Source: Thermincola carboxydiphila
GTDB taxonomy: Bacteria; Bacillota; Thermincolia; Thermincolales; UBA2595
NCBI GenBank assembly: GCA_016841725.1
Contig: JAENYP010000023.1
Location: forward strand, 1 to 37,133
Direction of reading: 5' to 3'
Length of the DNA stretch: 37,133 nucleotides
Made by a program: the position numbers and the translations under genes. Below the pieces are notes generated by a model. It did not search any database, was not told where the DNA came from, and saw only the letters and a program-made list of their open reading frames with translations. Numbering within the stretch: the first letter of the stretch is position 1; every line of letters begins with the position of its first letter. Below are positions 1 to 36,832 of this stretch, one piece after another.

Positions 1-98
1 AATTTACTAAAAATTTTTGACCTTAGGGTCTTGACATATTACCATAGGTCTTTTAATTTATCCCCGTCATATTTAATCATTGTTGCTTTAATGTCGGC

Positions 99-317
99 TT
101 ACGCCACCGGAAAACAATCTTTTCCCGCTCTGGTAACTATATCTACTAACTTTTCAACGGTTACCTTTTCCGGGTCATGCCAGATAGTAGCAAATTGCAT
201 GTCCACTTCTGCGTTGTCAACACCTTCTGCCCCTAACAGGGCCAGCTTTATAATAGGTATTCAGTTGCCGGTATTGGCAATAATCTGGAGTTTGGTCATT
301 TTTATCTCTGCAGCCAT
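99..317 (-). CDS. HMA/MerP-like small protein with in-frame UGA (candidate selenoprotein)
   Basis: The start codon follows AAGGAGG at a 6-nt spacing and lies one base past the upstream reductase stop, so translation is probably coupled. Read through one TGA at 261-263 (codon 19), the frame gives 72 residues. The part after the UGA fits a heavy-metal-associated ferredoxin-like domain: GAEGVDNAEVD, then WHDPEKVTVEKLVDIVTRAG. By spacing to the helix that follows (KLALLGAEGV), the UGA sits at the second cysteine of the usual CxxC metal/redox motif, giving T-x-x-U. One cysteine (C68) lies near the C-terminus. A hairpin at 227-245 has the placement expected of a bacterial SECIS. Competing reading: a nonsense-mutated relic, since the neighbouring reductase is N-terminally truncated. 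The domain is fairly sure; selenocysteine is plausible but unproven. Confidence 0.55.
227..245 (-). promoter_or_regulatory. Candidate bacterial SECIS hairpin
   Basis: On the minus strand CTGGCCC (245-239), loop TGTTA (238-234) and GGGGCAG (233-227) form a stem of six pairs with one internal G-G mismatch. The apical loop begins 22 nt after the UGA and has G as its second base. That matches the general bacterial SECIS pattern: a short stem-loop roughly 16-37 nt downstream of UGA, with a G among the first two loop bases. Short hairpins are common by chance, so this supports but does not prove selenocysteine insertion. Confidence 0.4.
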
Positions 318-318
318 A

Positions 319-1107
319 CTATTCCTCCTTTCTGTTTTCGGTTATGTACCTTTCAGCGGAAATGGCAGCGATTGCTCCGTCTCCAACTGCCGTGGATACC
401 TGTCTGAGGGGCGTAACCCTTATATCTCCTGCAGCATAAATGCCGGGAACCGAAGTTTGCATTTTATCATTAACTATCACATGCCCATGCTCGTCCAAAG
501 CAACAATATCCTTCAAAAAGGAGGTGTGAGGCCGAGAGCCTATTGCAATAAACAGGCCGTCCACCTCAAGTCGGGAGGTGTCTCCTGTTTCTAAATTCTG
601 CACCTTAACCCCTTCAAGGAAGTTGCTGCTAACCAGGCCTTGAATAATGTGATTTAGCAAAAAGGTAATCATTTGGTTTTGAAAGGCTGTCTCCTGGAGT
701 ATTTTAGCTGCACGCAGCTCGCTGCGCCTGTGGATTAAATAAACCCGAGAAGCAAACTTGGACAAATAAAGGGCTTCCTCAACTGCGGTATCCCCTCCGC
801 CAACAACGGCAACTCTTTTGCCAATAAAGTAATTGGCATCACAGACTGCACAGTAAGATACCCCTTGACCCCTGAGTTCCGTTTCCCTGGGAATACCCAG
901 TTCAGCAGTCTTGAGTCCGGTGGCCAGAATTACAGCCTTGGCTGAATAGATTTCATCACCGGCACGAACTTCTTTGTCCGATCCGGTTAACTGTATTTGG
1001 TTAACCCTTTTGAATGTTTGTATTTCCAGCCCGAACCTTCTGGCCTGCCCTTCCATATTCTTAATTAGCTCCCCGCTTTTTTTCATATCTTTTAAAGAAG
1101 CCACCAT
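319..1107 (-). CDS. Thioredoxin reductase-like protein, N-terminally truncated
   Basis: A 262-residue flavoprotein disulfide reductase of the TrxB type. It shows the redox motif CAVC, the NADPH-binding VVGGGDTAVEEA followed by HRRSELRA, and the C-terminal FAD motif GIYAAGDIR with QVSTAVGDGAIAA. TrxB proteins are normally about 300-315 residues and begin with a GGGPAG dinucleotide-binding motif. Here the protein starts at the equivalent of about residue 55, and I found no such motif in any frame between 1108 and 1327. FAD binding should therefore be impaired. An out-of-frame ATG with a strong GGGGG ribosome site at 1126-1128 opens only about 20 codons. It is either a 5' deletion pseudogene or a specialised reductase partner for the small HMA protein it is coupled to. 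The body of the frame is intact, which argues against long-standing decay. Confidence 0.75.
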   Translation of the reverse strand: MVASLKDMKKSGELIKNMEGQARRFGLEIQTFKRVNQIQLTGSDKEVRAGDEIYSAKAVILATGLKTAELGIPRETELRGQGVSYCAVCDANYFIGKRVAVVGGGDTAVEEALYLSKFASRVYLIHRRSELRAAKILQETAFQNQMITFLLNHIIQGLVSSNFLEGVKVQNLETGDTSRLEVDGLFIAIGSRPHTSFLKDIVALDEHGHVIVNDKMQTSVPGIYAAGDIRVTPLRQVSTAVGDGAIAAISAERYITENRKEE

Positions 1108-1220
1108 TTGCAGACGCGTTGAACATAATTCCCCCTTTAAAGAATTAATTTAGCAACCAAGGGATTGCATCTAAGCTTTTTAATCACCTCCGTTATATAT
1201 AAACTCCCTTATATAATAAG

Positions 1221-1278
1221 AGCGCTGCGAAAGATATTCATTGCTCTTTAAGCAATCCTCGAATTCTATCACAGCGCT
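1221..1278. repeat. Interrupted inverted repeat / hairpin between trxB-like and TDT genes
   Basis: Outer arms AGCGCTGCGA (1221-1230) and TCACAGCGCT (1269-1278) pair at 9 of 10 positions. An inner perfect stem is ATTGCT/AGCAAT (1240-1245, 1251-1256) with loop CTTTA, and GATA/TATC plus TTC/GAA can pair between the two. On the minus strand it is followed by CTTATTATAT, so it may end transcription of the transporter upstream. The U-tract is too weak to be sure. Confidence 0.4.
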
Positions 1279-1327
1279 TTCAACGACATTATTGGGCGGC
1301 GAACGGTTTCACGATGATTTGCTGTCT

Positions 1328-24754: not shown

Positions 24755-25246
24755 TCAAGGAATCCCGCTTATTTCAGAAGACGCAATAATCCGGTCCGGA
24801 CCAATGCTGACACCTGTATTAGGTATAGAAAACCGCCCCTTGAGAAGGTCTTCAATAACACCGTCCGAAATCTCATATCCGGTTATCTCCCCGGTATTTT
24901 CATCAAGAATCAGATCCTGAATTATCCCGATGCTCCGGCCATCCTCGTATTCAACACGCAGACCCCTGATATCTCTTTTTTCGCTCACAGTTTTCTTTAA
25001 AACAGGGATAGATTTGATAGGTTTAATTACAGATTCATCGGCTATTATCAGGCTTTCGTTTTCACGCCTGAAAACGTCATCGTGAAGGAATCCCTTACTG
25101 TTCCTGAGCCACCCGCCGTTTTCGATAAGATAACCGATAACTCTGTTTTCGCCGAAATCATAAATCAGGTCTTTAACTTCTCCAAGCTGCTTTCCATTGC
25201 TTAAGGCAATCACCGGCAGGCTTATGATTTCCCTCCCTTTAAGCAC
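24755..25246 (-). CDS. PRC-barrel domain protein (two repeats)
   Basis: About 163 residues from GTG at 25246, chosen because GGAGG lies eight bases upstream; the longer frame from 25342 has no ribosome site. Two PRC-barrel-like halves are visible: GREIISLPVIALSNGKQLGEVKDLIYDFGENRVIGYLIEN, read here only as the pattern L-x-V-x-D-h-h-h-D, and DIRGLRVEYEDGRSIGIIQD with ENTGEITGYEISDG. Such proteins occur in photosynthetic reaction centres, RimM and sporulation-linked YlmC-like proteins. Function unknown; it probably heads the small-gene operon leading to the AI-2E permease. Confidence 0.75.
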   Translation of the reverse strand: MLKGREIISLPVIALSNGKQLGEVKDLIYDFGENRVIGYLIENGGWLRNSKGFLHDDVFRRENESLIIADESVIKPIKSIPVLKKTVSEKRDIRGLRVEYEDGRSIGIIQDLILDENTGEITGYEISDGVIEDLLKGRFSIPNTGVSIGPDRIIASSEISGIP

Positions 25247-25421
25247 ATCTGTTACCTCCAAGTCCTGACTTCCCCTATGACCTGTGGTCCTTAATAGTAT
25301 GACCGGAAAATAAACAAATAATTCGAAACCCAATTCATGCAAAAAAAATGATGTTATCAGTCACGACATTTGCTCGCGCAGCCAATAACAATCATTTTAA
25401 CATTTTTCGTTACAATCAATA

Positions 25422-26435
25422 CTATAAATTGATAATATGCAGAATTGTACCCGCAGCCACGCTAATCCCAAAAAGCAGCCCTGTGATCATGAGGTTTTCC
25501 CTGATGTTCCTGTTTTCCTTAAAAAGAACCAGTATGCCCAGGCCGGCGCCTGATGAAAGTCCGGCAACCGCGGAACCGAAACTTATCCCTCCCCTGAGGT
25601 ATATTTCCGTCACTGCTACAGATGCGGCACAATTCGGTATCAACCCGATAATGGCGGCAATAAACGGCTGCAGCGCACTATTACCCAAGAAGAATTTCCC
25701 CAGGTTTTCTTCTCCGACCTGAAAAATTATGTAGTTTAGAAACAAGGTCACAATAAAAATAAAACCAAAAACCTTAATCGTATGGATAACAGGGTGAATA
25801 ATCCACTGCCTGATGTCATTTTTTTTCGGAGTACAGCTATGTCCACAGCAGCCAATATGTTCATTTTCAGGGTGCTGCCTCAGGGCTTTACCCCATTCTG
25901 CAGCGTCCGGAATCTGAGCATGGTCATGGCTGTGCCCATGGCTGTGCCCATGGCAGTCAGCCCCGTGTTCAGCTCCGTTGTGGCTCCCGTCTCCGCTGCC
26001 GGTCCCGGATGCACATACTTCACGTTCTACGGCGGCTTTTCCTGACCTTGACAGTACAAGGTCAACAGAATATCCCCCAATTAATGCAATACAAATTTTG
26101 GCCGCCAGAAGAGGCAAAAGTACTCCAATCTTTTCCGGTTGGGCCAGAATAACGGGAATTGCCTCATCAGAGGTTGAGAGGTAAACTGCCAGTAATGTTC
26201 CCATTGTAATCAGCCTTTTGGAATAAAGGGCAGCGGAAATTACCGAAAACCCGCACTGGGGAACCACTCCGAAAACCGAACCTAATGCAGGGCCGGCTTT
26301 CCCTACCCTCTGAACCTTATCCCTGATCTTACCCCCAAACCTTATTTCAAGATATTCGATACCTATATAAATGGCCAGTAAAAACGGTATCATTAGCGCT
26401 GAATCAATTAAAGCATCAATAATTATTTCCTTCAT
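25422..26435 (-). CDS. Putative multi-span heavy-metal exporter with His/Cys-rich loop
   Basis: About 337 residues with roughly ten membrane segments in two halves. Each half has a matching motif: VVPQCGFSVISAALYSKRLITMGTLLAVY and LIPNCAASVAVTEIYLRGGISFGSAVAG. This inverted repeat with P-x-C fits the 10-TM putative metal exporter/ArsP-like permeases. The central loop (about residues 140-205) is rich in His and Cys (HGADCHGHSHGHSHDHA, HIGCCGHSCTP), expected to bind Zn, Mn, Co or Ni. Its ATG overlaps the stop of the Fur-family gene by four bases (ATGA). The metal is unknown; control by the adjacent regulator is likely. Confidence 0.8.
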   Translation of the reverse strand: MKEIIIDALIDSALMIPFLLAIYIGIEYLEIRFGGKIRDKVQRVGKAGPALGSVFGVVPQCGFSVISAALYSKRLITMGTLLAVYLSTSDEAIPVILAQPEKIGVLLPLLAAKICIALIGGYSVDLVLSRSGKAAVEREVCASGTGSGDGSHNGAEHGADCHGHSHGHSHDHAQIPDAAEWGKALRQHPENEHIGCCGHSCTPKKNDIRQWIIHPVIHTIKVFGFIFIVTLFLNYIIFQVGEENLGKFFLGNSALQPFIAAIIGLIPNCAASVAVTEIYLRGGISFGSAVAGLSSGAGLGILVLFKENRNIRENLMITGLLFGISVAAGTILHIINL

Positions 26436-26866
26436 GTGGATAGCTCCTTCCTGCACTGCCTGCAGTAGCCGAAGACCTCGAACCTGTGGGTAGTTACCTT
26501 GAAATCTTCAGGAACAGTATTATTAATATTAAGGCCTTCCAGCGGGCAGGCCTTTAATTTCCATGTTCCCCCACATTTCAGACATACCAGATGATGGTGA
26601 TGGTCCTGGCTGCGGTTAAGTTCATACCTGCTGCGTCCCTCCTGAAAGTCCAGCCTGTTGACAATATGTAAGTCCTGCAAGAGGTTCAGGTTACGGTAGA
26701 CCGTATCAAAGCTCATATGGGGATATTTCTTCAGCATCCGGTCATAGATTTCCCTGGCAGCCAATGGAGTTTTAGCTCTTATAAGTATCTTTAACAGTTC
26801 CCTTCTCTGCAGGGTAAGTTTGCAGCTTTGGGTAGATAGCTGTTCAAGTATGCTCTCATATATCAT
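26432..26866 (-). CDS. Fur-family metal-dependent regulator (Zur/PerR/Fur type)
   Basis: 144 residues. The winged helix has LTLQRRELLKIL and the recognition helix MSFDTVYRNLNLLQDL. The dimerisation domain has DHHHHLVCLKCGG and the structural zinc site C95/C98 ... C135/C138 (GYCRQCRKEL). The regulatory metal ligands include the HHHH run at 89-92. It is translationally coupled to the exporter gene. A perfect palindrome at its promoter indicates autoregulation. Whether it answers to zinc, manganese, iron or peroxide cannot be decided; pairing with a His-rich exporter suggests zinc or manganese. Confidence 0.88.
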   Translation of the reverse strand: MIYESILEQLSTQSCKLTLQRRELLKILIRAKTPLAAREIYDRMLKKYPHMSFDTVYRNLNLLQDLHIVNRLDFQEGRSRYELNRSQDHHHHLVCLKCGGTWKLKACPLEGLNINNTVPEDFKVTTHRFEVFGYCRQCRKELST

Positions 26867-26881
26867 AGCTCTACATCTCCC

Positions 26882-26902
26882 AAATCAGAATGTTTCTGAT
26901 TT
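26882..26902. promoter_or_regulatory. Fur-family operator (9-3-9 perfect palindrome)
   Basis: AAATCAGAA, TGT, TTCTGATTT: perfect symmetry over 21 bp. It lies just downstream of the -10 element of the regulator-exporter operon, where a bound repressor would block initiation. Size and AT-rich arms are like Fur/Zur/PerR boxes, but the sequence is not one of the standard consensus boxes. Confidence 0.7.
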
Positions 26903-26904
26903 AT

Positions 26905-26933
26905 ATTATACTACCGCAAACACTCCCTGTCAA
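26905..26933 (-). promoter_or_regulatory. Consensus sigma-A promoter of the fur-exporter operon
   Basis: TTGACA (26933-26928), 17-bp spacer, TATAAT (26910-26905) on the minus strand, all consensus. The -35 box directly follows the T-run of the preceding terminator. Confidence 0.85.
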
Positions 26934-26979
26934 AAGAAATCGGACCGCGTTGAGCCCTTTGTATTAAAGGAAACGGTCC
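26934..26979 (-). terminator. Terminator of the mtaB-ramA operon
   Basis: GGACCG/CGGTCC (26942-26947, 26974-26979) with an inner CCTTT/AAAGG stem (26956-26960, 26966-26970), followed on the minus strand by ATTTCTTTT. It lies about 40-80 bases past the ramA-like stop. Confidence 0.6.
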
Positions 26980-27019
26980 TTCAGAGGAGGCTTGATAATA
27001 ATATTTTTTTTTGCAGCTT

Positions 27020-28645
27020 TTAGGAAATGAAAGGAATCAGGGCAAACTCAAAAACCTTTTTCGGGCAATTTATTTCACATCTCTTGCAGGCAGTGCCATT
27101 ACACCTGTCAGGCCTTATCAATATAGTCGGCTGCTGTTCCGGCAGAAGCTGCAGCGCTTTTTCAGGACACTTTTCCACACAGGCGCCGCATCCTGTACAA
27201 CCATCAAACCGTACCTGGCATGGTTTTCCGACAATATCGATATAGGACACTCCCCGGCAGCCCAAATCCGGGATATCCCGCTCATAGAGCCTGATAATTT
27301 CCGGTTCTCCATAAGGTTCGATCAAACGCGGCAGCTTATACATCCTGCTGAATTTGTGATACTGCTCCCAGGGCATGCCTTCACCCCAAAAGGATAATTC
27401 CAACAGGTACGCCCTTTCAAAAACCTGGGAGTCTCCAAACATACAGTGATTAGCCCTGAGCGCACGCGCCAGGTCCTGTAATTCCCACAGTTTCTCCGGA
27501 TCCAGCACAATATCCCGGGCCATTGCCAGTGAGGTATTGCCAACCTGGTAGACTTTTTGGGCTCCGGGGGGCACCAGACCAACCTGTAGGGCTTTTCGCG
27601 CATTCACATAGGTTCCGGAAGCGCCCGCCATATATGCGGTCTTAATATCCTCCAGCTCTATCCCGGCTTCTGCTGCCAGGGTGATGAACCCGGCCCTGAT
27701 AGCGCCTATTGCTTTGCCGGCTTCGGTAATGTCATGCTCACTGAAGGCAACATCTTTTCCCAGATGTATTTTCTTTTGCGGTGTTTTTATTTGGGGAAGC
27801 CGAATAAGGTTTGCGGCCATGCCCTCATAAAGGATTGAGATTACACCGGTCCCCGTAATTCCGGCAACACCTACCGCTCCTGTTTCCAGAACGGTCCCTG
27901 CCGTTATATCCACCAGGTCTCCCGGTTCACTAATCATATTCTGGTTTAGGACATAACACCTGAAGCCAACCTTTTCGGCTTCTATATCGTGAACAGCTCC
28001 CGGGGCCGCCAGCATTCCAAATTCAATATGCTGTCCTTCCAAAGCCGGCCCGGCCGCACAGGAACCTGTAATTATCCTGTCTCCGATTTTAAGCGCCATT
28101 TCGGCATTTGTTCCATAATCGGTAACCAAAGCGATATCCCTGTTTTCCAGCAATCCTGACTGGGCCATCATTGCCAGGGCATCAGCCCCGATTTCGTGCT
28201 TCACTGCCGCCGGAATGTATACTCCCACACCCGGTGGCAGAAACAGGCCGTCGATGTCGGAAGCTGCCAGCTTTTTGGCATCCCTGTTTGGCGGCACAAT
28301 GCCCATGAGCTTCTTTTTGCGTTCCCCTGCATAAGCCAGGTCCCTTATTTCAATCCCCTCAAACAGTGATAACTGTATGGGGTTCCCGCATACAGCAAGC
28401 CTTGTGATATCTTCTTTTGGTATTCCCAGGGTACTGATAACCTGATTAACTGTCTCGATAACCACACCATGGGCTGTTTCCAGTCCGGCTTCTATAGCAA
28501 AATTCAGATGGTCCATGACATTTGCCCCTGGCAGAGGATGCCTCGCAGTGAGCACTGTTGCTATGATTTCTTTTCTTTCCAGGTCAATGGCCTGCCCTCG
28601 GAAGCCGCTGGTACCCAAATCAAGCGCTATACCTGTTTGACCCAT
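27020..28645 (-). CDS. ramA: RamA-type corrinoid protein reductive activase (ASKHA ATPase plus 2x[4Fe-4S])
   Basis: 541 residues, the length of methanogen RamA. The ASKHA ATPase body shows ALDLGTSGFRGQAIDL, ALVTDYGTNAEMAL, GITGTGVISILYEGM and AYMAGASGTYVNARKALQVG. The C-terminal part carries two cluster motifs: CTGCGACVEKCP and CNGTACKRCEINCP. In methanogens RamA uses ATP to reduce inactive Co(II) corrinoid proteins to active Co(I). Bacterial homologues often have an N-terminal ferredoxin instead; this one keeps the archaeal C-terminal layout. It is last in the mtaB-mtaC-cobW-like-ramA operon, so MtaC is its probable substrate. Confidence 0.9.
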   Translation of the reverse strand: MGQTGIALDLGTSGFRGQAIDLERKEIIATVLTARHPLPGANVMDHLNFAIEAGLETAHGVVIETVNQVISTLGIPKEDITRLAVCGNPIQLSLFEGIEIRDLAYAGERKKKLMGIVPPNRDAKKLAASDIDGLFLPPGVGVYIPAAVKHEIGADALAMMAQSGLLENRDIALVTDYGTNAEMALKIGDRIITGSCAAGPALEGQHIEFGMLAAPGAVHDIEAEKVGFRCYVLNQNMISEPGDLVDITAGTVLETGAVGVAGITGTGVISILYEGMAANLIRLPQIKTPQKKIHLGKDVAFSEHDITEAGKAIGAIRAGFITLAAEAGIELEDIKTAYMAGASGTYVNARKALQVGLVPPGAQKVYQVGNTSLAMARDIVLDPEKLWELQDLARALRANHCMFGDSQVFERAYLLELSFWGEGMPWEQYHKFSRMYKLPRLIEPYGEPEIIRLYERDIPDLGCRGVSYIDIVGKPCQVRFDGCTGCGACVEKCPEKALQLLPEQQPTILIRPDRCNGTACKRCEINCPKKVFEFALIPFIS

Positions 28646-28693
28646 GTTACCACTCCTCTTTTGCAGTTTTCAGATTCATTTGTACCGTTCGTT

Positions 28694-29608
28694 TCACAAC
28701 TGGCATCTGCCGAACTCTTCCTTCAGCAAATCCTTCCTGAGGTCTGTACCTATTACTATTATCTTGCTTAACACCAACCCCTTTTTAACGTCTGATTCTG
28801 CAACTTCGCGTGATGCCAGGTCAAGGCGTACCCAGTCATCGCCCGCAACCCGAAAGACACCTTTTGCCCTGTCAACCAGGCCAAAAGTGCTGTGGTTAAT
28901 TTTCCGAAACAGGTCTCGCAGCTTTTCCAGGTCAAAAATACCGCCGGTAGAGGTACTGAACTGCTCATACCTCTTCAGGGGCACTTCCGATACACCTGGC
29001 AAAAAAAGTTCTTCGTTGATTAAATCCCCGGTTTGAGTTGTTTCTCTGCTTGTAACCCTCCCGTGGATAGTCAGTAAAATCCCGGCCGCTGTATTTATAC
29101 TTCTGATAAAACCTGTTATCCAGCTGATTTCACCGGCATCGACCCGGTCGCATTTATTTACGGCAATAACATGTGCGGCCTTGAGCTGATTTTCCACAAA
29201 GGCGCGGTTTTGAGCAACTATTTCCCTAAGATTTGCTGCATCTATGACCAGAGTGACCCGGATATCTTCAATGTATTTTTCAAGGCTAAGGCTGTTCAGG
29301 ATACCCAGTAAATTCTTTATGGTAGCAATACCGGTAGGCTCTATCAGAAGCCGGTCCGGCTCAAAGTTCTCGGCAATCTCCTTGACCTGGGTACGGAGGT
29401 CGGCAGTCAGGGTGCAGCAGATGCACCCATTGGGGAGTTCCACCACACTGGCTCCATGTCCACTGAGGATATCACCGTCAATGCCAATTTCCCCGAATTC
29501 GTTTACCAATACCACTGTTTTTTCACCAGGGTCCTTTTGTTCCAGCAGGTTTAACATATATGTCGTCTTACCTGATCCCAACAGTCCGTTAATTACGTCA
29601 ATCTTCAT
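28694..29608 (-). CDS. CobW/G3E-family GTPase, candidate metallochaperone
   Basis: 304 residues from ATG at 29608 (GAGGGG upstream). Walker A is GLLGSGKTT, the family CxCC motif is C62-I-C64-C65 (PNGCICCTL), Walker B-like LLIEPTGIA follows, and NKCD is the guanine motif. The C-terminal CobW domain ends at GRCQL and has no His-rich tail. G3E proteins deliver Zn or other metals, or assist cobalamin enzymes. Here it lies between mtaC and ramA. MtaB is a zinc enzyme and MtaC a cobalt-corrinoid protein, so either could be its client; the choice is open. Confidence 0.88.
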   Translation of the reverse strand: MKIDVINGLLGSGKTTYMLNLLEQKDPGEKTVVLVNEFGEIGIDGDILSGHGASVVELPNGCICCTLTADLRTQVKEIAENFEPDRLLIEPTGIATIKNLLGILNSLSLEKYIEDIRVTLVIDAANLREIVAQNRAFVENQLKAAHVIAVNKCDRVDAGEISWITGFIRSINTAAGILLTIHGRVTSRETTQTGDLINEELFLPGVSEVPLKRYEQFSTSTGGIFDLEKLRDLFRKINHSTFGLVDRAKGVFRVAGDDWVRLDLASREVAESDVKKGLVLSKIIVIGTDLRKDLLKEEFGRCQL

Positions 29609-29650
29609 ATTTCGGCGCCCCTCATTTCTGGGATTTGACATATTGGAATA

Positions 29651-29684
29651 CTGACCCGGGCCTGGATACCCAGTCCCGGGTCAG
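29651..29684. repeat. Strong hairpin between mtaC and the CobW-like gene
   Basis: CTGACCCGGG (29651-29660) pairs perfectly with CCCGGGTCAG (29675-29684). Inside, CTGG/CCAG adds four pairs after one mismatch, with a 4-base loop. There is no T-run on either strand, so it is more likely an mRNA-stability or processing element, giving more mtaBC than cobW/ramA message, than a terminator. Confidence 0.6.
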
Positions 29685-29698
29685 CAATCAGACATTAA

Positions 29699-30448
29699 TT
29701 AATTGTTCCACTTCTCTCTTAACTGGCTCCAACTCAGGCCATTTACAGCATCATTGGCCATTCCGGGGGCCTCTGAAGCATCCTTGCCAAATATCCCGAG
29801 CTCATAACCGCTCACATATTCCAGAGATACAGCGCCGCCGCCACAGACAAACGGTACATAGTTGCTGTCTTTAACCAGGCGCTTGGAGATTCTTTCAAAT
29901 GCCGTCATGGTGGTGGTCATCAGGGCTGTCCCGGTTACCATAACCGGTTTATGCTCCTTAACTGCCGCAACCACCTCATCAACAGGAACGTCCTTGCCCA
30001 GGTCAACAACATTATAGCCATTGGCCCTGAGGAGTGCATTCACAATTTTCTGTCCCAGGTCATGAATATCTCCTTCTGCAGTATGGGTAATTACAGTTCC
30101 CTTCTTCTCCAGGGCTTTACCCAGTTTTTTCTCACAGATATCCAGCCCTTGAAGCATGGCATCAGATGCCACAATAGCCTGGGGAAGATAATACTCTCCC
30201 TCATCCCAGAGCCTGCTGACTTCATTCATGCCTCTAATCAGACCATCATTGATAACCGTCATAGGGTCTTTTGATGCCAATGCCTCATTAACGGCAGCGG
30301 CGATATTATCACTGTCCCCTTCCAGGACACAATCCAAAACCTTCTGCATTGCGGAGTCCTTGTTTGAAACCTTTACCCCTTTAGCTTCTCCCGAGCCAAT
30401 GAGGTCATATCTTACAAAGATATTAGCATAATTTGCCACTGTTGCCAT
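29699..30448 (-). CDS. mtaC: Methanol-type corrinoid protein MtaC
   Basis: 249 residues, the size of MtaC. An N-terminal extension (ANIFVRYDL) and helical cap domain (about 35-115; RLWDEGEYYLPQ) precede the B12-binding Rossmann domain with EGDIHDLGQKIVNALL (lower-ligand His129), VVDLGKDVP and CGGGAVSLEY. It carries the methyl group from MtaB on its corrinoid. ATG follows AAAGGAGGG. It is 41 bases after mtaB, and the next gene follows a strong hairpin. Confidence 0.93.
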   Translation of the reverse strand: MATVANYANIFVRYDLIGSGEAKGVKVSNKDSAMQKVLDCVLEGDSDNIAAAVNEALASKDPMTVINDGLIRGMNEVSRLWDEGEYYLPQAIVASDAMLQGLDICEKKLGKALEKKGTVITHTAEGDIHDLGQKIVNALLRANGYNVVDLGKDVPVDEVVAAVKEHKPVMVTGTALMTTTMTAFERISKRLVKDSNYVPFVCGGGAVSLEYVSGYELGIFGKDASEAPGMANDAVNGLSWSQLREKWNN

Positions 30449-30489
30449 CTTTGTCCCTCCTTTAATTTATGACATTTCTTCCCAACGGT

Positions 30490-31863
30490 TTACAGACCAT
30501 AATTGGCCAGAGTAAAACCAGGGATTAGTTTCTTGTAAATGTCGGTACATTCACTGATGAAATCTTCCTCTTTATCAGGCAGGCTTTCCAGGGTACGCAT
30601 AGCTGATTCCAGTGACTCTTTTTCAAAAGCAGATATCTGTAGTTTGCTGTCACCGAGCATCAGTTCTCCGGACTTAATAGCAGCAGCACGCGCCCTGGCA
30701 TAGTAGGAAGTATTGTTGGCAACAATTGCTTTACCAATTTCATATGCATTTTCCGGGCAAAGAATGAAGCCATGGGTATCACGGTACTTGTCGGAATGAA
30801 TCATCATCTGCTGCAGATCCTTGGCCTTACCCAGTTCAATAGCGGTATTCATCAAGGACACATCATAGCCAAGAATCTCAGCAAATACAGCTACCGTAGT
30901 TCCACCGAACATGTCATGGTATTCAACTGCTTCGTTACTCCACAGGTCACAGCACGCTCCAACCAGGTTGCCCAGGAGGTCGCTGTGGGCACAGGCACAC
31001 GTTTTACCTTCCATTGATATGGGGTTTCCGGTGATTGACTTGATGATAACATCTTCATAACCACAGTCCTTACTTGGACCTTTGGCTCCCTGCTCATAAG
31101 CAACCAGGGAACGTGCTGCAGCAATAGCCCTTGTCAAAGCGGCAAAGGTATGCGGAACAGAGCGGTCCTGAAAGCCTCCGGCCATAAACATGGCCACATT
31201 GGCCTGGGCACAGTTGGTGTCGCCACCTGGGGTAGCCCCATATTTGTCAGCAATGGCAACAATTTTCTTCCACATAAACTCCATATCCAGGCTCCCGAGA
31301 ACACCAATCCCAAAGAGGGTTCCCCGGATATCCTGCCTGACAATGGTATAGTCGGAGATTTCCTTGCCACCTACAGATTCGATGGAAAGGTTATCTGCTC
31401 CACCTGCTGCGCTTGTTTCAAAAGTCTTTAACTGGTTTTCCAGAGCTACACTGTTTCTGATGTCTTCCTCGTCAGGTTTCCGGTAGTCTGCAACAGTTGC
31501 TCTGATAGCGCTCTTGAGACCATACTTACGGAAATAATCCTCCTGCAGGTGCTTTGTTGCTGCGGCAATTTCACCGCCCCACTCCGGGTTTTTGGTCATT
31601 TGATAAACGTGTTCCAGCTCGATCTGGATTCCTGGGATACCAATGCCCACACAACGATCGAGCACATCGGTAACCATTTTTTCATATTCTTTGACCAGAG
31701 TTTTCTTGGTTGATTCCGTGCCCGGTCTGGGATGCGGTACCAGCTCCGGATAAACGTAACCTCCACCGACAGTAAAATCGCGACCGTACTTCACAGGATT
31801 CTTTGCTGAGCCAAATATCATTTCATCAGCGCTTGCGTAAGCCATCTTGTCATATTTCGGCAT
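30490..31863 (-). CDS. mtaB: Methanol:corrinoid methyltransferase MtaB
   Basis: 457 residues from ATG at 31863, chosen because AAGGAGG lies nine bases upstream and the length then matches known MtaB. It breaks the C-O bond of methanol and methylates MtaC. The zinc ligands of the Methanosarcina enzyme (Glu164, Cys220, Cys269) are all found with a constant offset of two: Glu162 in LSIESVGG, Cys218 in GGDTNCAQAN and Cys267 in SKDCGYED. It is first in the operon, behind a sigma-54 promoter. No MtaA follows directly, so methyl transfer onward, presumably to tetrahydrofolate, must use a partner elsewhere. Confidence 0.95.
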   Translation of the reverse strand: MPKYDKMAYASADEMIFGSAKNPVKYGRDFTVGGGYVYPELVPHPRPGTESTKKTLVKEYEKMVTDVLDRCVGIGIPGIQIELEHVYQMTKNPEWGGEIAAATKHLQEDYFRKYGLKSAIRATVADYRKPDEEDIRNSVALENQLKTFETSAAGGADNLSIESVGGKEISDYTIVRQDIRGTLFGIGVLGSLDMEFMWKKIVAIADKYGATPGGDTNCAQANVAMFMAGGFQDRSVPHTFAALTRAIAAARSLVAYEQGAKGPSKDCGYEDVIIKSITGNPISMEGKTCACAHSDLLGNLVGACCDLWSNEAVEYHDMFGGTTVAVFAEILGYDVSLMNTAIELGKAKDLQQMMIHSDKYRDTHGFILCPENAYEIGKAIVANNTSYYARARAAAIKSGELMLGDSKLQISAFEKESLESAMRTLESLPDKEEDFISECTDIYKKLIPGFTLANYGL

Positions 31864-32020
31864 TCTTGCTAACCTCCTTTTGTTAACTAAACTACTGGGC
31901 ACTTAAACAACCTGCTAAACAGAACACAAGGGAAATAATTGTACCTAATACACCTCCTCCCGACACGGAGCATGATTGATCCGGTGAAAATTCCACCAAG
32001 CGCATCTGTACATTACATAA

Positions 32021-32037
32021 AGCAATAACCATGCCAA
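32021..32037 (-). promoter_or_regulatory. Sigma-54 (-24/-12) promoter of the mtaB operon
   Basis: Minus-strand TTGGCATGGTTATTGCT matches the consensus YTGGCACGrNNNTTGCW at all but one fixed base (T for C), with the invariant GG and GC at the right spacing. Transcription should start near 32010, giving a leader of about 150 nt before mtaB. A sigma-54-dependent activator is encoded 1.3 kb upstream. Confidence 0.75.
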
Positions 32038-32049
32038 AACCAGGTGTTG
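32034..32049. promoter_or_regulatory. CCAAAACC-type dyad at the promoter (copy 1)
   Basis: CCAAAACCAGGTGTTG, an imperfect palindrome just upstream of and touching the -24 element. A second copy (14 of 16 bases identical) lies at 32141-32156. Possible binding site for a regulator or bending protein. Confidence 0.35.
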
Positions 32050-32140
32050 GTGCAAAATATTTGGTTTAACAGTTTTCTCCCTTGATACTGCTATGATTTC
32101 AATGATATGCATTCATCCGGGGCTGTTCCCTGAGCGTGGG

Positions 32141-32156
32141 CCAAAACCTGGTATTG
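32141..32156. promoter_or_regulatory. CCAAAACC-type dyad (copy 2)
   Basis: CCAAAACCTGGTATTG, same orientation as copy 1 and 107 bp away. It runs into the TGTT-N9-AACA dyad that follows. Confidence 0.35.
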
Positions 32157-32173
32157 TTCCATTGCAGAACAAT
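32153..32173. promoter_or_regulatory. Candidate activator site A (TGTT-N9-AACA)
   Basis: ATTGTTC, seven bases, GAACAAT: perfect 7-7-7 dyad, about 120 bp upstream of the -24 box, a usual distance for a sigma-54 enhancer. Confidence 0.5.
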
Positions 32174-32243
32174 CCAATGCCCGTGATTTGTTTTATTCTC
32201 TGAAACTACCTTGTACAGGTTGGCCCGTTCCCCTTTTTTAGAA

Positions 32244-32262
32244 GTGTTACGAAATGAAACAC
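32244..32262. promoter_or_regulatory. Candidate activator site B (TGTT-N9-AACA)
   Basis: GTGTTAC, GAAAT, GAAACAC: dyad with one mismatch, with the same TGTT-N9-AACA frame as site A and exactly 90 bp from it. A further TGTTAC half-site follows at 32263-32268. Confidence 0.5.
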
Positions 32263-32286
32263 TGTTACAACCGAAAGAACACTAGA

Positions 32287-32496
32287 AAAGCGCGCATATT
32301 TCAGTTCCCTATGCGCGCGCTTTCACCCGCAAGGGGTGGGCCGCATCCCTAAGAAGCTACGCTTCAAGGGCTGCGCACTCTGTACTACATTCCTTAACCT
32401 TTTCCACACTGCGGAGCCGTTACCGCTTCAGCGGTTTACGGCTCCGGCGTACCCCTTGCGGGTACATGTGGAAAAGATATACTTTCCTGTAGTACA
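32287..32496. repeat. Block of nested inverted repeats (possible MITE or structured RNA)
   Basis: Several arms pair. GCGCGCAT/ATGCGCGC is at 32290-32297 and 32311-32318. ACCCGCAAGGGGT (32325-32337) has its exact complement ACCCCTTGCGGGT at 32451-32463. TGTACTACA/TGTAGTACA is at 32381-32389 and 32488-32496. CTTTTCCACA/TGTGGAAAAG is at 32399-32408 and 32467-32476. GGAGCCGT..ACCGC-TTCA-GCGGT..ACGGCTCC is at 32413-32445. GTACCC/GGGTAC is at 32449-32454 and 32460-32465. No coding frame here looks real. It begins about 20 bases past the second mtaC; the GC-rich hairpin at 32287-32323 is followed on the minus strand by TTTT and may also terminate. Confidence 0.8.
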
Positions 32497-32513
32497 AAAA
32501 AAGGGAAGGTGTC

Positions 32514-33266
32514 TCAGCCGTTATATTTTCGTCTGAGCCCCTCCCATGACATCCCCCGTTCAGCGTCCTCAGCCATCTTAGGAGCAAGGGAAGCATCCTT
32601 TCCATAAATTCCGTAATCAAAGCTGGTAATAAAAGAAAGGGTGACTCCTCCTCCTCCTCCACAGGCAAATGGAACGCTCAGTCCCTGTTCCTTCAGCCTG
32701 TCAGATATCCTTTTAAATGCTCCCATGGTTGTGCTCAGGTGGGCTGTACCACAGATAATATCAGGATTATGTTCTCTGACAGCCTGAACAACTTCGGGCA
32801 CCGGAACGTCCTTCCCGAGGTCAACCACCTCAAAACCGCTGGCCCGGAGTAAGGCATTAACAATTTTCTGCCCCAGGTCATGAATGTCTCCTTCGGCAGT
32901 ATGAGTGATGGCAAGCCCCCGTTTCCGCACCGGACACCCCAGTCTTTCCTCACAGATTTCCAGCCCCAGAAGCATGGCATCTGAAGCCAGGAGGGTCTGG
33001 GGCAGATAATAAACCCCTTCATCCCAGAGTATGCTGACTTCTTTGATCCCTGCAATCAGTCCGTTGTAAATAACATCTACCGGATCTTCTTCTTCCAGGG
33101 CCGACTTGACGACATCGCCAATGTTTTCCAGGTCACCAAGGATAACACATTCAGTCACTCTAGCCATGGTCTGTTTTTCTCCTGCACTTCTCTTAATTGA
33201 ATAATATGGGCTCTCAGTAACCAAGTCATAACGGATAAACACATTTGAATAATCCCTGATAGGCAT
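32514..33266 (-). CDS. mtaC2: Second methanol-type corrinoid protein MtaC
   Basis: 250 residues from ATG at 33266 (AAAGGGG upstream; a TTG at 33284 lies too close to it). It is a close paralogue of the first MtaC: the same N-terminal NVFIRYDL, WDEGVYYLPQ, THTAEGDIHDLGQKIVNALLRA with lower-ligand His129, and CGGGGGVTLS. The N-terminal 40 residues differ most. No mtaB lies with it; instead it follows the sigma-54 activator gene by 30 bases and is probably co-transcribed with it. It may serve another methyltransferase or sense pathway state. Confidence 0.9.
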   Translation of the reverse strand: MPIRDYSNVFIRYDLVTESPYYSIKRSAGEKQTMARVTECVILGDLENIGDVVKSALEEEDPVDVIYNGLIAGIKEVSILWDEGVYYLPQTLLASDAMLLGLEICEERLGCPVRKRGLAITHTAEGDIHDLGQKIVNALLRASGFEVVDLGKDVPVPEVVQAVREHNPDIICGTAHLSTTMGAFKRISDRLKEQGLSVPFACGGGGGVTLSFITSFDYGIYGKDASLAPKMAEDAERGMSWEGLRRKYNG

Positions 33267-33296
33267 TATTTTTACCCCTTTCAAAAAAAACCGTCC

Positions 33297-35285
33297 TTAA
33301 CCATGGCTCCTATCCTGACGCAAATTATACCTCTCAATCTTTCTGTAAAGGGTGTTTCTGCCAATCCCCAGAACTGCAGCAGCCTTGGAAATGTTCCAGT
33401 TGCTGGATTCCAGGGTGTTGATGATTACAGTGGCCTCGGCATTTTTTAGTTTATCTGTCTGGATACTCTTTTTAGAAACAGTCTTTTGCGATGAGAAAAT
33501 TCTTGAAGGGAGATGTTCTGGAATCAAAATATCTGATTCCACCATGTGCAGGGCCTGTTCAATAACATTTTCCAGTTCCCTGACGTTACCCGGCCAGTTA
33601 TATTCGGTAAGGCAATTGTAGAATTCAGGGGTGATTGTTGGTGGGTTCTGTCCAAGTCTGCAGCTTATCTTTTCCACAAAATACTGGGCAAGGTAAGGGA
33701 TATCCTTGGGGCGTTCCCGCAAACCGGGGAGTTGAAATGTGATTACATTGAGCCGATAATAAAGGTCAAGCCGGAAGTTTCCTTTTTCTACTTCCCCGGC
33801 CAGATTCTTATTGGTAGCAGCAATTACTCTTGTATTAATCGGAATCGCTTTCTGACCGCCTATTCTGGTAACCTGCCGTTCCTGTAACACCCGCAACAGA
33901 CTGGACTGGATATCAAGGGGCATGTCACCTATTTCATCAAGAAAAATGGTGCCGCCGTTTGCCAGTTCGAATTTACCCGGCCGGCCTCCCTTCCTGGCAC
34001 CGGTAAAAGCGCCGTCCTCATATCCGAAAAGCTCGCTTTCAACAAGTTCACGCGGGATGGCACCACAATTAATCACTATAAAAGGTCCCCCGCTGCGGCC
34101 GCTGGCATTGTGCACAGCCTGGGCGAATATCTCTTTCCCGGTTCCGCTCTCACCCTGCAGCAGAATGGTCGAACCGCTCCTGGCAACTCTTTTGGCACGC
34201 TTCATCAGGGAATGTAGCTGGGGGTCATTGCCAATGATATGATCAAAGGTCAGGGTAGCCTGTGCTCCCACCATTTTATGGACAAGTTTGTGTACTGTAT
34301 CCATTTCCCGCAGTGTCGCAATCATCCCGGTAATATTTCCTTCTTTATCCCTGATGGCTCTGGCAGTGGATGTAAAACGCGAGCCACCGTAAGGCGTGTC
34401 CAGAAAAAATTCCTTGTCCTCAAACTCTTTCCCACTGCTTATGGCATCCAGCAAAGGAAAGTCGGCTCCAAAAACGTCGGATACGTATTTGCTGAGACAG
34501 TCTTCCGGTGCCACCTGAAGAATTTTTGCTCCCAATGAATTCAACTGTGTAATCTGTCCATTGGCCTCAATGGCTATTAACCCGTCACTCATTGTTTCAA
34601 TGGCTGTCTTCACTTTGTTATAGGCGATCATCAATTCATAAGATGCCTTCTGACTGGCCAGCTGGTTTCCGATTGCCTCTACGGCTGCAACTACCATCCC
34701 CAGGGTATGTGGATGTACATTGTGATACATTCCAACAATGCATAAAACCCCCAGTAATTCCTGTTCAGGGCTGAAAATCGGGGCTGCTGAGCCTGTCAAT
34801 TCATGGAGGACTTTACAATAATGCTCACTGGCATTTATCTGTATCGGCTTTTTCTCAAATAACGCGGTCCCTATAGAGTTGGTCCCCGCTATAGCTTCAC
34901 CCCAGTCGGACCCAATATGGTGGCATAAATGTTTCGTCCGGTATTGGATAACAGGGTCTCTTAAAACATCCAGAACCATACCCTGGTCATCGGCCAGGCA
35001 GACCAGGGTATCAGTTCCCTTGACAAAGTTATATAAATGATTCATAAAAGGCATCGCAGCATCAATAAGCCTTTTCCTGCGTTTAATTCGTTTTTCAACC
35101 TGCACCGGGCTTAAGAGGCGAAGGTCACTCAATGTTGCACAGGGGTCAACCTTCATCCTCAGGCACCGATGCCAAGAATTTGCGACCAAAGGCCTGATTA
35201 CATAAGGTTCAATTTCAAAGTTGTTTATGAACTTTTCCCAAGACCGGTAAATTCTGTTGAGTTTACGGTCCACAGGTTCACCCAC
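33297..35285 (-). CDS. Sigma-54-dependent transcriptional activator (GAF-PAS-AAA+-Fis HTH)
   Basis: About 662 residues. A GAF-like sensor (about 70-215; DWGEAIAGTNSIGTAL, as in AcoR-type proteins) is followed by PAS (about 228-330; MSDGLIAIEANGQI) and the AAA+ domain. The latter has Walker A GESGTGKE (378-385), the sigma-54-contacting GAFTGA (425-430) and Walker B GGTIFLDEIGDMP. The last 50 residues hold a Fis-type helix-turn-helix (NISKAAAVLGIGRNTLYRKIERY). There is no receiver domain, so it should sense a small molecule directly. Start is GTG at 35285 or, with better ribosome-site spacing, GTG at 35273. It is the natural candidate to drive the sigma-54 promoter of mtaB. Confidence 0.93.
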   Translation of the reverse strand: MGEPVDRKLNRIYRSWEKFINNFEIEPYVIRPLVANSWHRCLRMKVDPCATLSDLRLLSPVQVEKRIKRRKRLIDAAMPFMNHLYNFVKGTDTLVCLADDQGMVLDVLRDPVIQYRTKHLCHHIGSDWGEAIAGTNSIGTALFEKKPIQINASEHYCKVLHELTGSAAPIFSPEQELLGVLCIVGMYHNVHPHTLGMVVAAVEAIGNQLASQKASYELMIAYNKVKTAIETMSDGLIAIEANGQITQLNSLGAKILQVAPEDCLSKYVSDVFGADFPLLDAISSGKEFEDKEFFLDTPYGGSRFTSTARAIRDKEGNITGMIATLREMDTVHKLVHKMVGAQATLTFDHIIGNDPQLHSLMKRAKRVARSGSTILLQGESGTGKEIFAQAVHNASGRSGGPFIVINCGAIPRELVESELFGYEDGAFTGARKGGRPGKFELANGGTIFLDEIGDMPLDIQSSLLRVLQERQVTRIGGQKAIPINTRVIAATNKNLAGEVEKGNFRLDLYYRLNVITFQLPGLRERPKDIPYLAQYFVEKISCRLGQNPPTITPEFYNCLTEYNWPGNVRELENVIEQALHMVESDILIPEHLPSRIFSSQKTVSKKSIQTDKLKNAEATVIINTLESSNWNISKAAAVLGIGRNTLYRKIERYNLRQDRSHG

Positions 35286-35381
35286 CTCATTTTTGTCTTT
35301 GAAAGACTGATTTACCCACTCTTATTATAAATAATAATTTTTTGCTTTAAGTTAATTATATACAAAATCTGTTAAAATCAG

Positions 35382-35453
35382 TGTCGAATCATTTTTATAT
35401 TACTACTAAATTTAATAGTATTTTTAAATAAGACTGTCGTTTACTGTCGAATC
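35382..35453. repeat. TGTCGAATC direct repeats upstream of the activator gene
   Basis: TGTCGAATC at 35382-35390 and again at 35445-35453, with another TGTCG at 35435-35439. The region between is AT-rich with a TACTA/TAGTA dyad. It is the only non-coding stretch before the activator gene, so these may be regulatory, but short repeats in AT-rich DNA are weak evidence. A minus-strand TATAAT-like -10 is present, without a good -35. Confidence 0.3.
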
Positions 35454-36133
35454 TAGTCTATCCGGCTTTGCTTATCCAATGATTTTAATATAGTAATCGT
35501 TTCAAGAGCATATTTGATTGCATTATGGGCATTATCCGCATAGCTGTCGGCGCCCCATTGATTTGCCAGATTTCTGTTAACCGGAGCGCCTCCTACCATT
35601 ACTTTCACCCCGGGACTCTTTTCTTTGATTCGTTTAATGATTTCACTCATACTGTTCATCGTAGTCGTCATCATAGCTGAAAGGCAGACTATTTCAGCAT
35701 CGGTGCGCAGCTGCTCATCAACAAACTTATCCAGGGGTACATCACAGCCCAGATCGTGAACCTTAAACCCGGCAGCATCAAACATCATTTTAATAATGTT
35801 TTTCCCGATATCATGGATATCTCCTGCTACCACTCCGATAACAATCTGTCTTTTTTCCACATATTGTTCTCTTTTTATATGGGGGAGCAAGACATTTAGT
35901 CCGGCATAAAGAGCATCAGAGCACATCAGCATTTCTGCTATAAAATAGTCTCCTCTTTCGTATAGTTCTCCCACTTCTTCGATTCCGGGCAAGAGACCTT
36001 TCATGATACATTCATAGATATCAAGGTTATAGTTCAGTACATCCCGGGATGCATTGACGACTATTTCTTCATCGTAATTCAAAACTCCTTCTTGCAGCCT
36101 TGCCCAAATTTTTCTGCGAACATCACCAGCCAT
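35453..36133 (-). CDS. Corrinoid protein, MttC/MtgC-like (copy 1)
   Basis: 226 residues. A helical cap domain (about 1-90; IEEVGELYERGDYFIAEMLM) precedes a B12 domain with VVAGDIHDIGKNIIKMMF (lower-ligand His107), VHDLGCDVPLDKFV and VMVGGAPVNRNLANQWGADSYADNA. The DIHDIGKNI form and short N-terminus separate it from the MtaC type and resemble corrinoid proteins for methylamines, glycine betaine and O-demethylation. GGGGGGAG precedes ATG. It lies 48 bases downstream of a close paralogue. Confidence 0.9.
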   Translation of the reverse strand: MAGDVRRKIWARLQEGVLNYDEEIVVNASRDVLNYNLDIYECIMKGLLPGIEEVGELYERGDYFIAEMLMCSDALYAGLNVLLPHIKREQYVEKRQIVIGVVAGDIHDIGKNIIKMMFDAAGFKVHDLGCDVPLDKFVDEQLRTDAEIVCLSAMMTTTMNSMSEIIKRIKEKSPGVKVMVGGAPVNRNLANQWGADSYADNAHNAIKYALETITILKSLDKQSRID

Positions 36134-36181
36134 GCAACTCCCCCCTTTAGGACATTAGAAAAATTTTTCCTTTATGTTTTT

Positions 36182-36832
36182 TTACATATCTCTCAGGGAA
36201 GCAACCATATTAATGGCATCTTTAAGGGCATTATTGGCATCCTTGGCATAGCCGTCGGCCCCCCACTGTCCGGCGAGGTTTTCATTTACCGGAGCGCCGC
36301 CGATCATAATCTTGACATTGGGGTTTTTATCTTTGAGCTTCTTGATGATTTCAGGCATTCCCACCATAGTTGTTGTCATCATGGCAGAGAGACAGACCAG
36401 GTCGGAGTTTGTGTTCAACTGCTCTTCAATAAATGTCTCCAGGGGAACATCGCGGCCCAGGTCGTGGACTTCAAAGCCGGCTACATCAAACATCATCTTG
36501 ACAATGTTTTTGCCGATGTCATGGACATCGCCCTGAACAACACCCATAATAACCTGGCCTTTAATACCACCAGCCTTTTTCTTCATATTTGGTTTCAGAA
36601 TGTTTAGGCCGGCATACATAGCATCTGCTGCCAGCAGCATTTCGGGAACAAATATCTCTTCAAGTTCATATAATCGTCCGATTTCCTCAATCCCGGCAAC
36701 CAAGCCGTCAAAGATTGCCTCCTCGGCATCGATGCCTTTTTCCAGGGCTTCATTTGCCGCTTCGATTACCATGTCATTGTCGTATTCGATTACTCCATCT
36801 TTGAGCCTTGCTAAAATCTGTTCTTTACTCAT
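36182..36832 (-). CDS. Corrinoid protein, MttC/MtgC-like (copy 2)
   Basis: 216 residues, full-length for the family. The cap domain has IEEIGRLYELEEIFVPEMLLAADAM; the B12 domain has VVQGDVHDIGKNIVKMMF (lower-ligand His104), VHDLGRDVPLETFI and IMIGGAPVNENLAGQWGADGYAKDA. ATG follows AAAAGGAGGA. It is clearly paralogous to the next gene and closer to a standard sequence. A UroD-like methyltransferase gene ends 176 bases upstream, which suggests a second methyltransferase/corrinoid pair. Confidence 0.92.
   Translation of the reverse strand: MSKEQILARLKDGVIEYDNDMVIEAANEALEKGIDAEEAIFDGLVAGIEEIGRLYELEEIFVPEMLLAADAMYAGLNILKPNMKKKAGGIKGQVIMGVVQGDVHDIGKNIVKMMFDVAGFEVHDLGRDVPLETFIEEQLNTNSDLVCLSAMMTTTMVGMPEIIKKLKDKNPNVKIMIGGAPVNENLAGQWGADGYAKDANNALKDAINMVASLRDM

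Follow-up and report, generated by a model that had tools for sequence, protein, structure and literature searches.

We identified, at one end of the window (the whole 37,133-nucleotide stretch of Thermincola carboxydiphila DNA analysed here), a 72-codon gene for a small HMA/MerP-like protein in which an in-frame TGA very probably encodes selenocysteine (Sec); the insertion itself we infer from gene-level evidence. What lifts this reading above chance is the conservation of the TGA in relatives together with codon-constrained divergence downstream of it. We call the gene HMA-TGNU after the motif that holds the proposed Sec at codon 19. In relatives it sits in an operon of candidate selenoprotein genes around a corrinoid methyltransferase, and we hold its Sec identity and this operon assignment jointly with nearly the same confidence. 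The window is one contig (C13) of a 3.9 Mb genome assembled in 40 contigs.

Gene, motif and predicted fold

The gene and its immediate signals are as follows.

99..317, minus strand: HMA/MerP-like gene, proposed selenoprotein, 72 codons, TGNU at residues 16-19 (from translation, profiles, TGA orthologues and predicted fold)
261..263, minus strand: in-frame TGA, the proposed Sec codon 19 (TGA at the same codon in two relatives, G002 and L009)
324..328, minus strand: GGAGG, a Shine-Dalgarno-like ribosome-binding site of the gene (from sequence)

The frame opens with an ATG at 317-315, beginning 1 nt past the TAG of an upstream reductase remnant, and closes with a TAA stop at 101-99. Translation through the TGA yields 72 residues, MAAEIKMTKLQIIANTGN-U-IPIIKLALLGAEGVDNAEVDMQFATIWHDPEKVTVEKLVDIVTRAGKDCFPVA. 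The original prediction had described such a frame, with a single in-frame TGA at 261-263 and HMA similarity continuing beyond it; this is confirmed, and the strand, unstated at the time, is minus. The Pfam HMA profile PF00403 matches residues 18-67, past the TGA (E 9e-4), at 20 bits, which falls below its gathering cut-off of 24.8 bits. The best NCBIfam match, NF041115 (UxxU_metal_bind), covers residues 17-65 (E 4e-8) at 33.4 bits, well short of the curated cut-off of 95 bits. Filing the protein under NF041115 or among CxxC HMA proteins is ruled out by score and by motif, there being one Sec and no UxxU spacing.

Profile alignment places the second cysteine of the CxxC motif of distant HMA proteins (e.g., CopZ, 6ff2) opposite Sec19. 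The earlier assignment of the UGA to that cysteine therefore stands, but the CxxC pair it presupposed does not: the first position is Thr or deleted, and the first ligand is absent in all members. On its sequence the product is an HMA protein with a single putative selenol in a TGNU motif; with Thr or a deletion where the first CxxC ligand should be, this selenol would be exposed. Ordinary two-ligand metal chelation of the CxxC style is unlikely because the HMA loop holds only one chalcogen.

The protein is predicted to adopt an HMA-type fold with the motif opening helix 1. AlphaFold2 run on a three-row alignment gave a beta-alpha-beta-beta-alpha arrangement with a mean pLDDT of 77, in one of five models only, and the single-sequence model was poor (pLDDT 61). 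Helix 1 spans residues 17-28 in the model, with Sec19 in its first turn, and the final strand of the ferredoxin-like beta-alpha-beta-beta-alpha-beta HMA fold is not resolved. The best PDB matches in Foldseek were a Bacillus copper-ion-binding protein, the CzcP N-terminal extension, MerP, and CopZ, with TM-scores of ~0.65-0.74 against MerP/CopZ-type structures (PDB 1osd, 6ff2, 2l3m).

A corrinoid operon, intact in relatives and damaged in the window genome

Intact forms of the operon were found in G002, a sister genome of the same genus (locus L043), and on L009, a contig of a Syntrophaceae metagenome-assembled genome (MAG). In G002 the five genes run in this order.

L043:6775-7446: corrinoid protein gene, first
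L043:7478-8707, plus strand: thioredoxin reductase with N-terminal TsoX, TGA in GDPN-U-RPC, second
L043:8709-8927: HMA-TGNU gene, third
L043:8988-10037: MtaA/CmuA-like methyltransferase, fourth
L043:10076-10309, plus strand: second HMA gene, two TGAs, SMTUTSUAAM (UxxU), fifth

On L009 the order is reductase, CobW-like GTPase, HMA-TGNU, MtaA-like protein, HMA-UxxU (SLTUTTUIVM), and corrinoid protein, with two further TGA genes.

L009:2674-3924, plus strand: TsoX-thioredoxin reductase, TGA in GDPN-U-KPC
L009:6308 onward, plus strand: HMA-UxxU gene (TUTTU)

The TsoX domain (NF045809) that opens the G002 reductase scores 104 bits against a cut-off of 52, and the operon proteins shared by L009 and G002 are 57-77% identical. 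The HMA-UxxU protein reaches 48 bits with NF041115, below the cut-off, and resembles MerTP, MerP, and CopZ. Judged from sequence, the cluster is common to two distant lineages and brings together a corrinoid methyltransferase and three candidate selenoproteins, an assignment that is firm for the relatives. The neighbouring genes that we read in L043 and L009 included no recognisable corrinoid activase. In other genomes of the phylum, the ~1.5-kb flanks of MtaA-like homologues (34-47% identical) contained neither a TGA-bearing HMA gene nor a clear TsoX gene. Near the L009 operon we also observed an arsenite methyltransferase/AhpD double selenoprotein gene (L009:8856-9962, plus strand, two TGAs; NF041537 at 599 bits, above 510).

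In the window genome the same operon is damaged, and its remains are distributed as follows.

319..1107, minus strand: thioredoxin reductase remnant without TsoX/TGA and FAD-binding N-terminus, its first codons being the corrinoid gene tail (TIGR01292 from profile position 54 only; comparison with L043)
1075..1113, minus strand: 3'-end remnant of the corrinoid gene, fused in frame to the reductase remnant (100% match to L043:7405-7443)
1125..1283, minus strand: operon upstream/leader remnant, corrinoid gene body deleted (95% match to L043:6614-6772)
1..50, no strand: end of a multicopy element between the HMA-TGNU and methyltransferase genes (G002 homology ends at 51; 14-48 repeated)
contig C40, 1148-1381 (locus L026), plus strand: second HMA gene (UxxU, two TGAs; TUTSU)

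Compared with G002, the window lacks ~630 bp of the corrinoid gene and a further ~505 bp comprising its last codon, the spacer, and the reductase N-terminus with the Sec motif and the FAD-binding GGGPAG. Homology to G002 ends at window position 51 and picks up again at C40:48, and the 35 bp at window 14-48 recur exactly at six other sites (on C10, C11, C17, C18, C19, and C37), several of which are contig ends. The multicopy element is probably an insertion sequence (IS) that fragments the assembly and sits in the operon. The methyltransferase gene survives on C40, 98% identical to that of G002, and from the G002 gene order we infer that C13 and C40 adjoin. Window positions 51-1077 are 97% identical to L043:7949-8975, as compared with 87-89% in the flanks on the contig, and this elevated identity may reflect recent exchange.

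These results qualify two proposals of the original prediction. A carrier coupled to a reductase gene was a sound description insofar as the intact relatives have a thioredoxin reductase at that place; the reductase of the window itself is a remnant without its FAD-binding N-terminus. The setting imagined for a redox or metal carrier differs from the actual one, a corrinoid methyltransferase operon containing two more genes with a TGA. With one chalcogen in its HMA loop, the protein itself is unlikely to chelate metal in the CxxC manner.

Because the operon is damaged in the window genome, HMA-TGNU may be idle there or use another reductant. It may be a Sec gene by descent that has become a non-functional relic of a broken operon and will erode, as the deleted corrinoid gene, the reductase stripped of its FAD/Sec N-terminus, and the probable IS before the methyltransferase gene would suggest. 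A genome-wide search found no TsoX domain elsewhere, the domain having been lost with the reductase N-terminus. However, the protein is identical to the copy in the intact operon, with synonymous changes only (which a recent split might equally explain), the methyltransferase and UxxU genes persist on C40, and other corrinoid proteins in the window could substitute for the missing one.

We consider it rather unlikely that HMA-TGNU is a MerP/CopZ-type copper or mercury chaperone in which Sec has replaced a Cys, and that its methyltransferase neighbours are incidental. The first CxxC ligand is missing in all members, and corrinoid and MtaA-like genes are kept alongside in two distant lineages, whereas the chaperone reading draws on the HMA profile and predicted fold, on the likeness of the neighbouring UxxU gene product to MerTP, MerP, and CopZ, and on an ArsR-type regulator downstream on C40 (best match TsoR, 78 bits, below the cut-off of 115).

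At its other end the window carries a methanol/corrinoid methyltransferase island (24755-36832, minus strand).

30490-31902, minus strand: mtaB
29699-30448, 32514-33284, 35453-36133 and 36182-36832, minus strand: corrinoid proteins
27020-28645, minus strand: RACo-type activase
28694-29641, minus strand: CobW-like protein
33297-35285, minus strand: sigma-54 activator
25422-26456, minus strand: ArsP_2-type exporter

Selenocysteine machinery, codon constraint and the downstream hairpin

Profile searches of the window genome recovered SelA (632 bits), SelB (358 bits), tRNA-Sec (selC, 72 bits; also found by ARAGORN, anticodon TCA), and a pair of SelD genes that both contain an in-frame TGA. The latter lie at C37:35023-35949 and C25:82355-83272, and the same pair occurs in the genomes G001, G002, and G003. 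The selenocysteine reading put forward originally is thus well supported: selA, selB, selD, and tRNA-Sec are all present, and every close homologue found has TGA at codon 19, none an ordinary non-Cys residue.

The G002 protein is identical to that of the window, with the TGA kept. The L009 orthologue, which emerged from a genome-collection scan, is ~70% identical over 71 residues and has its TGA at the same codon, within a stretch (ANTGN-TGA-IPIIK) identical in both; as a MAG contig, L009 may be misbinned. The subfamily is known from three genomes only, and since the window and G002 proteins are the same these represent two independent lineages.

Between the window and L009, codons 20-71 differ at 46 positions, 31 of them third positions (binomial p 2e-6), and the same frame is under codon constraint before and after the TGA. 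All four codon changes relative to G002 in codons 20-72 are synonymous (p about 0.003; synonymous opportunities 23%). By contrast, the truncated reductase shows 14 synonymous and 7 non-synonymous changes over 252 codons in the same comparison, the latter clustered. Because the differences are mostly third-position in the one case and all synonymous in the other, these alignments indicate that the sequence after the TGA is selected as protein.

It is very improbable that we are looking at an ordinary HMA pseudogene, its TGA a private nonsense mutation or a sequencing error, even though the surrounding operon is decaying through deletions and a probable IS: TGA in two other genomes, one of a distant lineage, rules out a private mutation, the downstream sequence is under purifying selection, and adjacent genes also have TGAs, at UxxC and UxxU motifs. 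Still less credible is UGA read as another amino acid, or an 18-residue leader with downstream re-initiation. A short leader frame is formally possible, but the genome has Sec machinery, constraint holds in one frame on both sides of the TGA, and the TGAs of the cluster, like those in selD, are confined to in-frame motif positions, as Sec predicts.

Sec at codon 19 thus remains the preferred reading, and the subfamily that carries it appears rare, as no further strong match emerged from the genomes scanned. Among 398 genomes of the phylum, strong scores were confined to the window genome and G002 (163 bits; the rest ≤34), and among 42 genomes of L009's class the only strong match was in L009's own genome. 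Neither set contained a Cys form of the subfamily, viral contigs and plasmids gave no matches, and the window genome has no second copy. Elsewhere in the phylum, an HMA-like, lipoprotein-like frame with TGA in VEGIT-U-ESC (locus L042, G097:C47, ~1090-1300, plus strand) is a possible Sec HMA protein of a different subfamily.

Downstream of the TGA we found a hairpin of the bSECIS type, enclosed by a predicted outer helix.

227..245, minus strand: bSECIS-type hairpin, loop GUU at 237-235, loop start 23 nt after the TGA (folding and constraint check)
219..261, minus strand: predicted outer 7-bp helix around the hairpin, 261-255 with 225-219 (folding)

The hairpin, CUG/CCCU-GUU-AGGG/CAG, has 7 bp with a one-base bulge or internal loop and an MFE of -10.6 kcal/mol. 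The 46-nt stretch that includes the outer helix folds at -14.7 kcal/mol (z -2.2; -1.7 in G002 and -2.3 in L009). The outer helix is predicted in all three sequences, with one A-U to U-A change affecting both sides in L009. Applying the published bSECIS limits of a hairpin 16-37 nt after UGA, a small loop, G in the first two positions, and MFE ≤ -7.5, we found the window hairpin within them (23 nt, GUU, -10.6). Its U-G-U-U-A also agrees with the consensus loop N-G-[G/U]-N-N (PMC13188914). The hairpin had been predicted at the right distance, with its loop at 22 nt and G as second loop base; it is present, at 23 nt, and G is the first loop base as folded but becomes the second once the closing U-A pair is left unpaired. 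It is not distinctive, however. In a control, 39 of the 250 TGA triplets in the window (16%) passed the same limits, so the hairpin by itself is weak evidence for Sec and we reject it as stand-alone proof. A loop motif, CUG[G/U]NAG, derived post hoc from these sites, lies downstream of only 1.2% of window TGAs. It or a near variant follows other TGA sites, namely in the reductases of G002 (CTGGAAG) and L009 (CTGGATG), the UxxU gene on C40 (CTGGAGG), and an HMA-like gene on C19 (CTGGAAG). The C19 gene (locus L027, G000:C19:94500-100500, where G000 is the window genome; 3212-3808, minus strand; ~199 codons) is a candidate selenoprotein in its own right, with an HMA-like part, TGA in LLCGGU, and the CTGGAAG loop after it.

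Possible role and relation to known systems

Gene neighbours suggest a tentative mechanism. Electrons from NADPH would pass through the reductase to its UxxC redox domain and keep the HMA-TGNU selenol reduced. The selenol would bind a soft or methylated element (a Se, As, or Hg species) and pass it to, or receive it from, the corrinoid/MtaA-like methyl-transfer pair. We regard this scheme as a whole as plausible but somewhat short of probable, and we would say the same of the general role that we propose, in which the protein serves corrinoid methyl transfer either by carrying a soft or methylated element on a reducible selenol or in a redox capacity. The MtaA-like proteins found in mlp clusters have been linked to methyl-selenium chemistry, and methylcobalamin:selenide methyl transfer was reported for one of them (PMC10418091). 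A more speculative and on balance doubtful proposal is a new type of corrinoid operon, in which the single-selenol HMA protein would bind or accept methyl-Se, methyl-As, or methyl-Hg, replacing coenzyme M or folate, with the Sec thioredoxin reductase recycling it.

Comparison with described families places HMA-TGNU near several of them. NF041115, the UxxU metal-binding (seleno)protein, is a predicted selenoprotein family (PMC13188914) whose members likewise are small HMA-type domains carrying Sec in the loop that binds metal, and the UxxU motif itself is found in the operon's second HMA gene; HMA-TGNU, however, has one Sec rather than two, has lost the first Cys/Sec position, and scores 33 bits against 95. 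With MerP/CopZ-type HMA proteins (PF00403) it shares the predicted beta-alpha-beta-beta-alpha fold and a Sec where the second Cys of CxxC sits. Unlike them it lacks the CxxC pair, has Sec for Cys and a shorter hairpin, and scores below the gathering cut-off.

The operon as a whole recalls the Tso selenoprotein neighbourhoods (TsoX NF045809, TsoR NF045707; Haft and Tolstoy 2025, as cited in PMC13188914) in the above-cut-off TsoX of the G002 reductase, in the C40 ArsR-type regulator being nearest TsoR, and in the clustering of selenoprotein genes. It differs in that TsoX is fused to a thioredoxin reductase, the partners are corrinoid and MtaA-like proteins, and the TsoR match is below cut-off; TsoA/B/C genes were not recognised among the neighbouring genes scanned. 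Type 1 mlp clusters (PMC10418091) likewise occur in anaerobes, combine a corrinoid protein with an MtaA-like methyltransferase and are linked to selenium genes, whereas the operon here has three TGA genes, including two HMA genes and a reductase, and no recognised activase.

HMA-TGNU would extend the HMA fold to a Sec form whose metal loop has a single chalcogen, beyond the reach of curated models. It ties three candidate selenoproteins to corrinoid and MtaA-like proteins in two distant lineages. This links the selenoprotein operons described in recent work to the methyl-selenium chemistry that has been proposed for mlp clusters, and does so in a small system open to biochemical testing.
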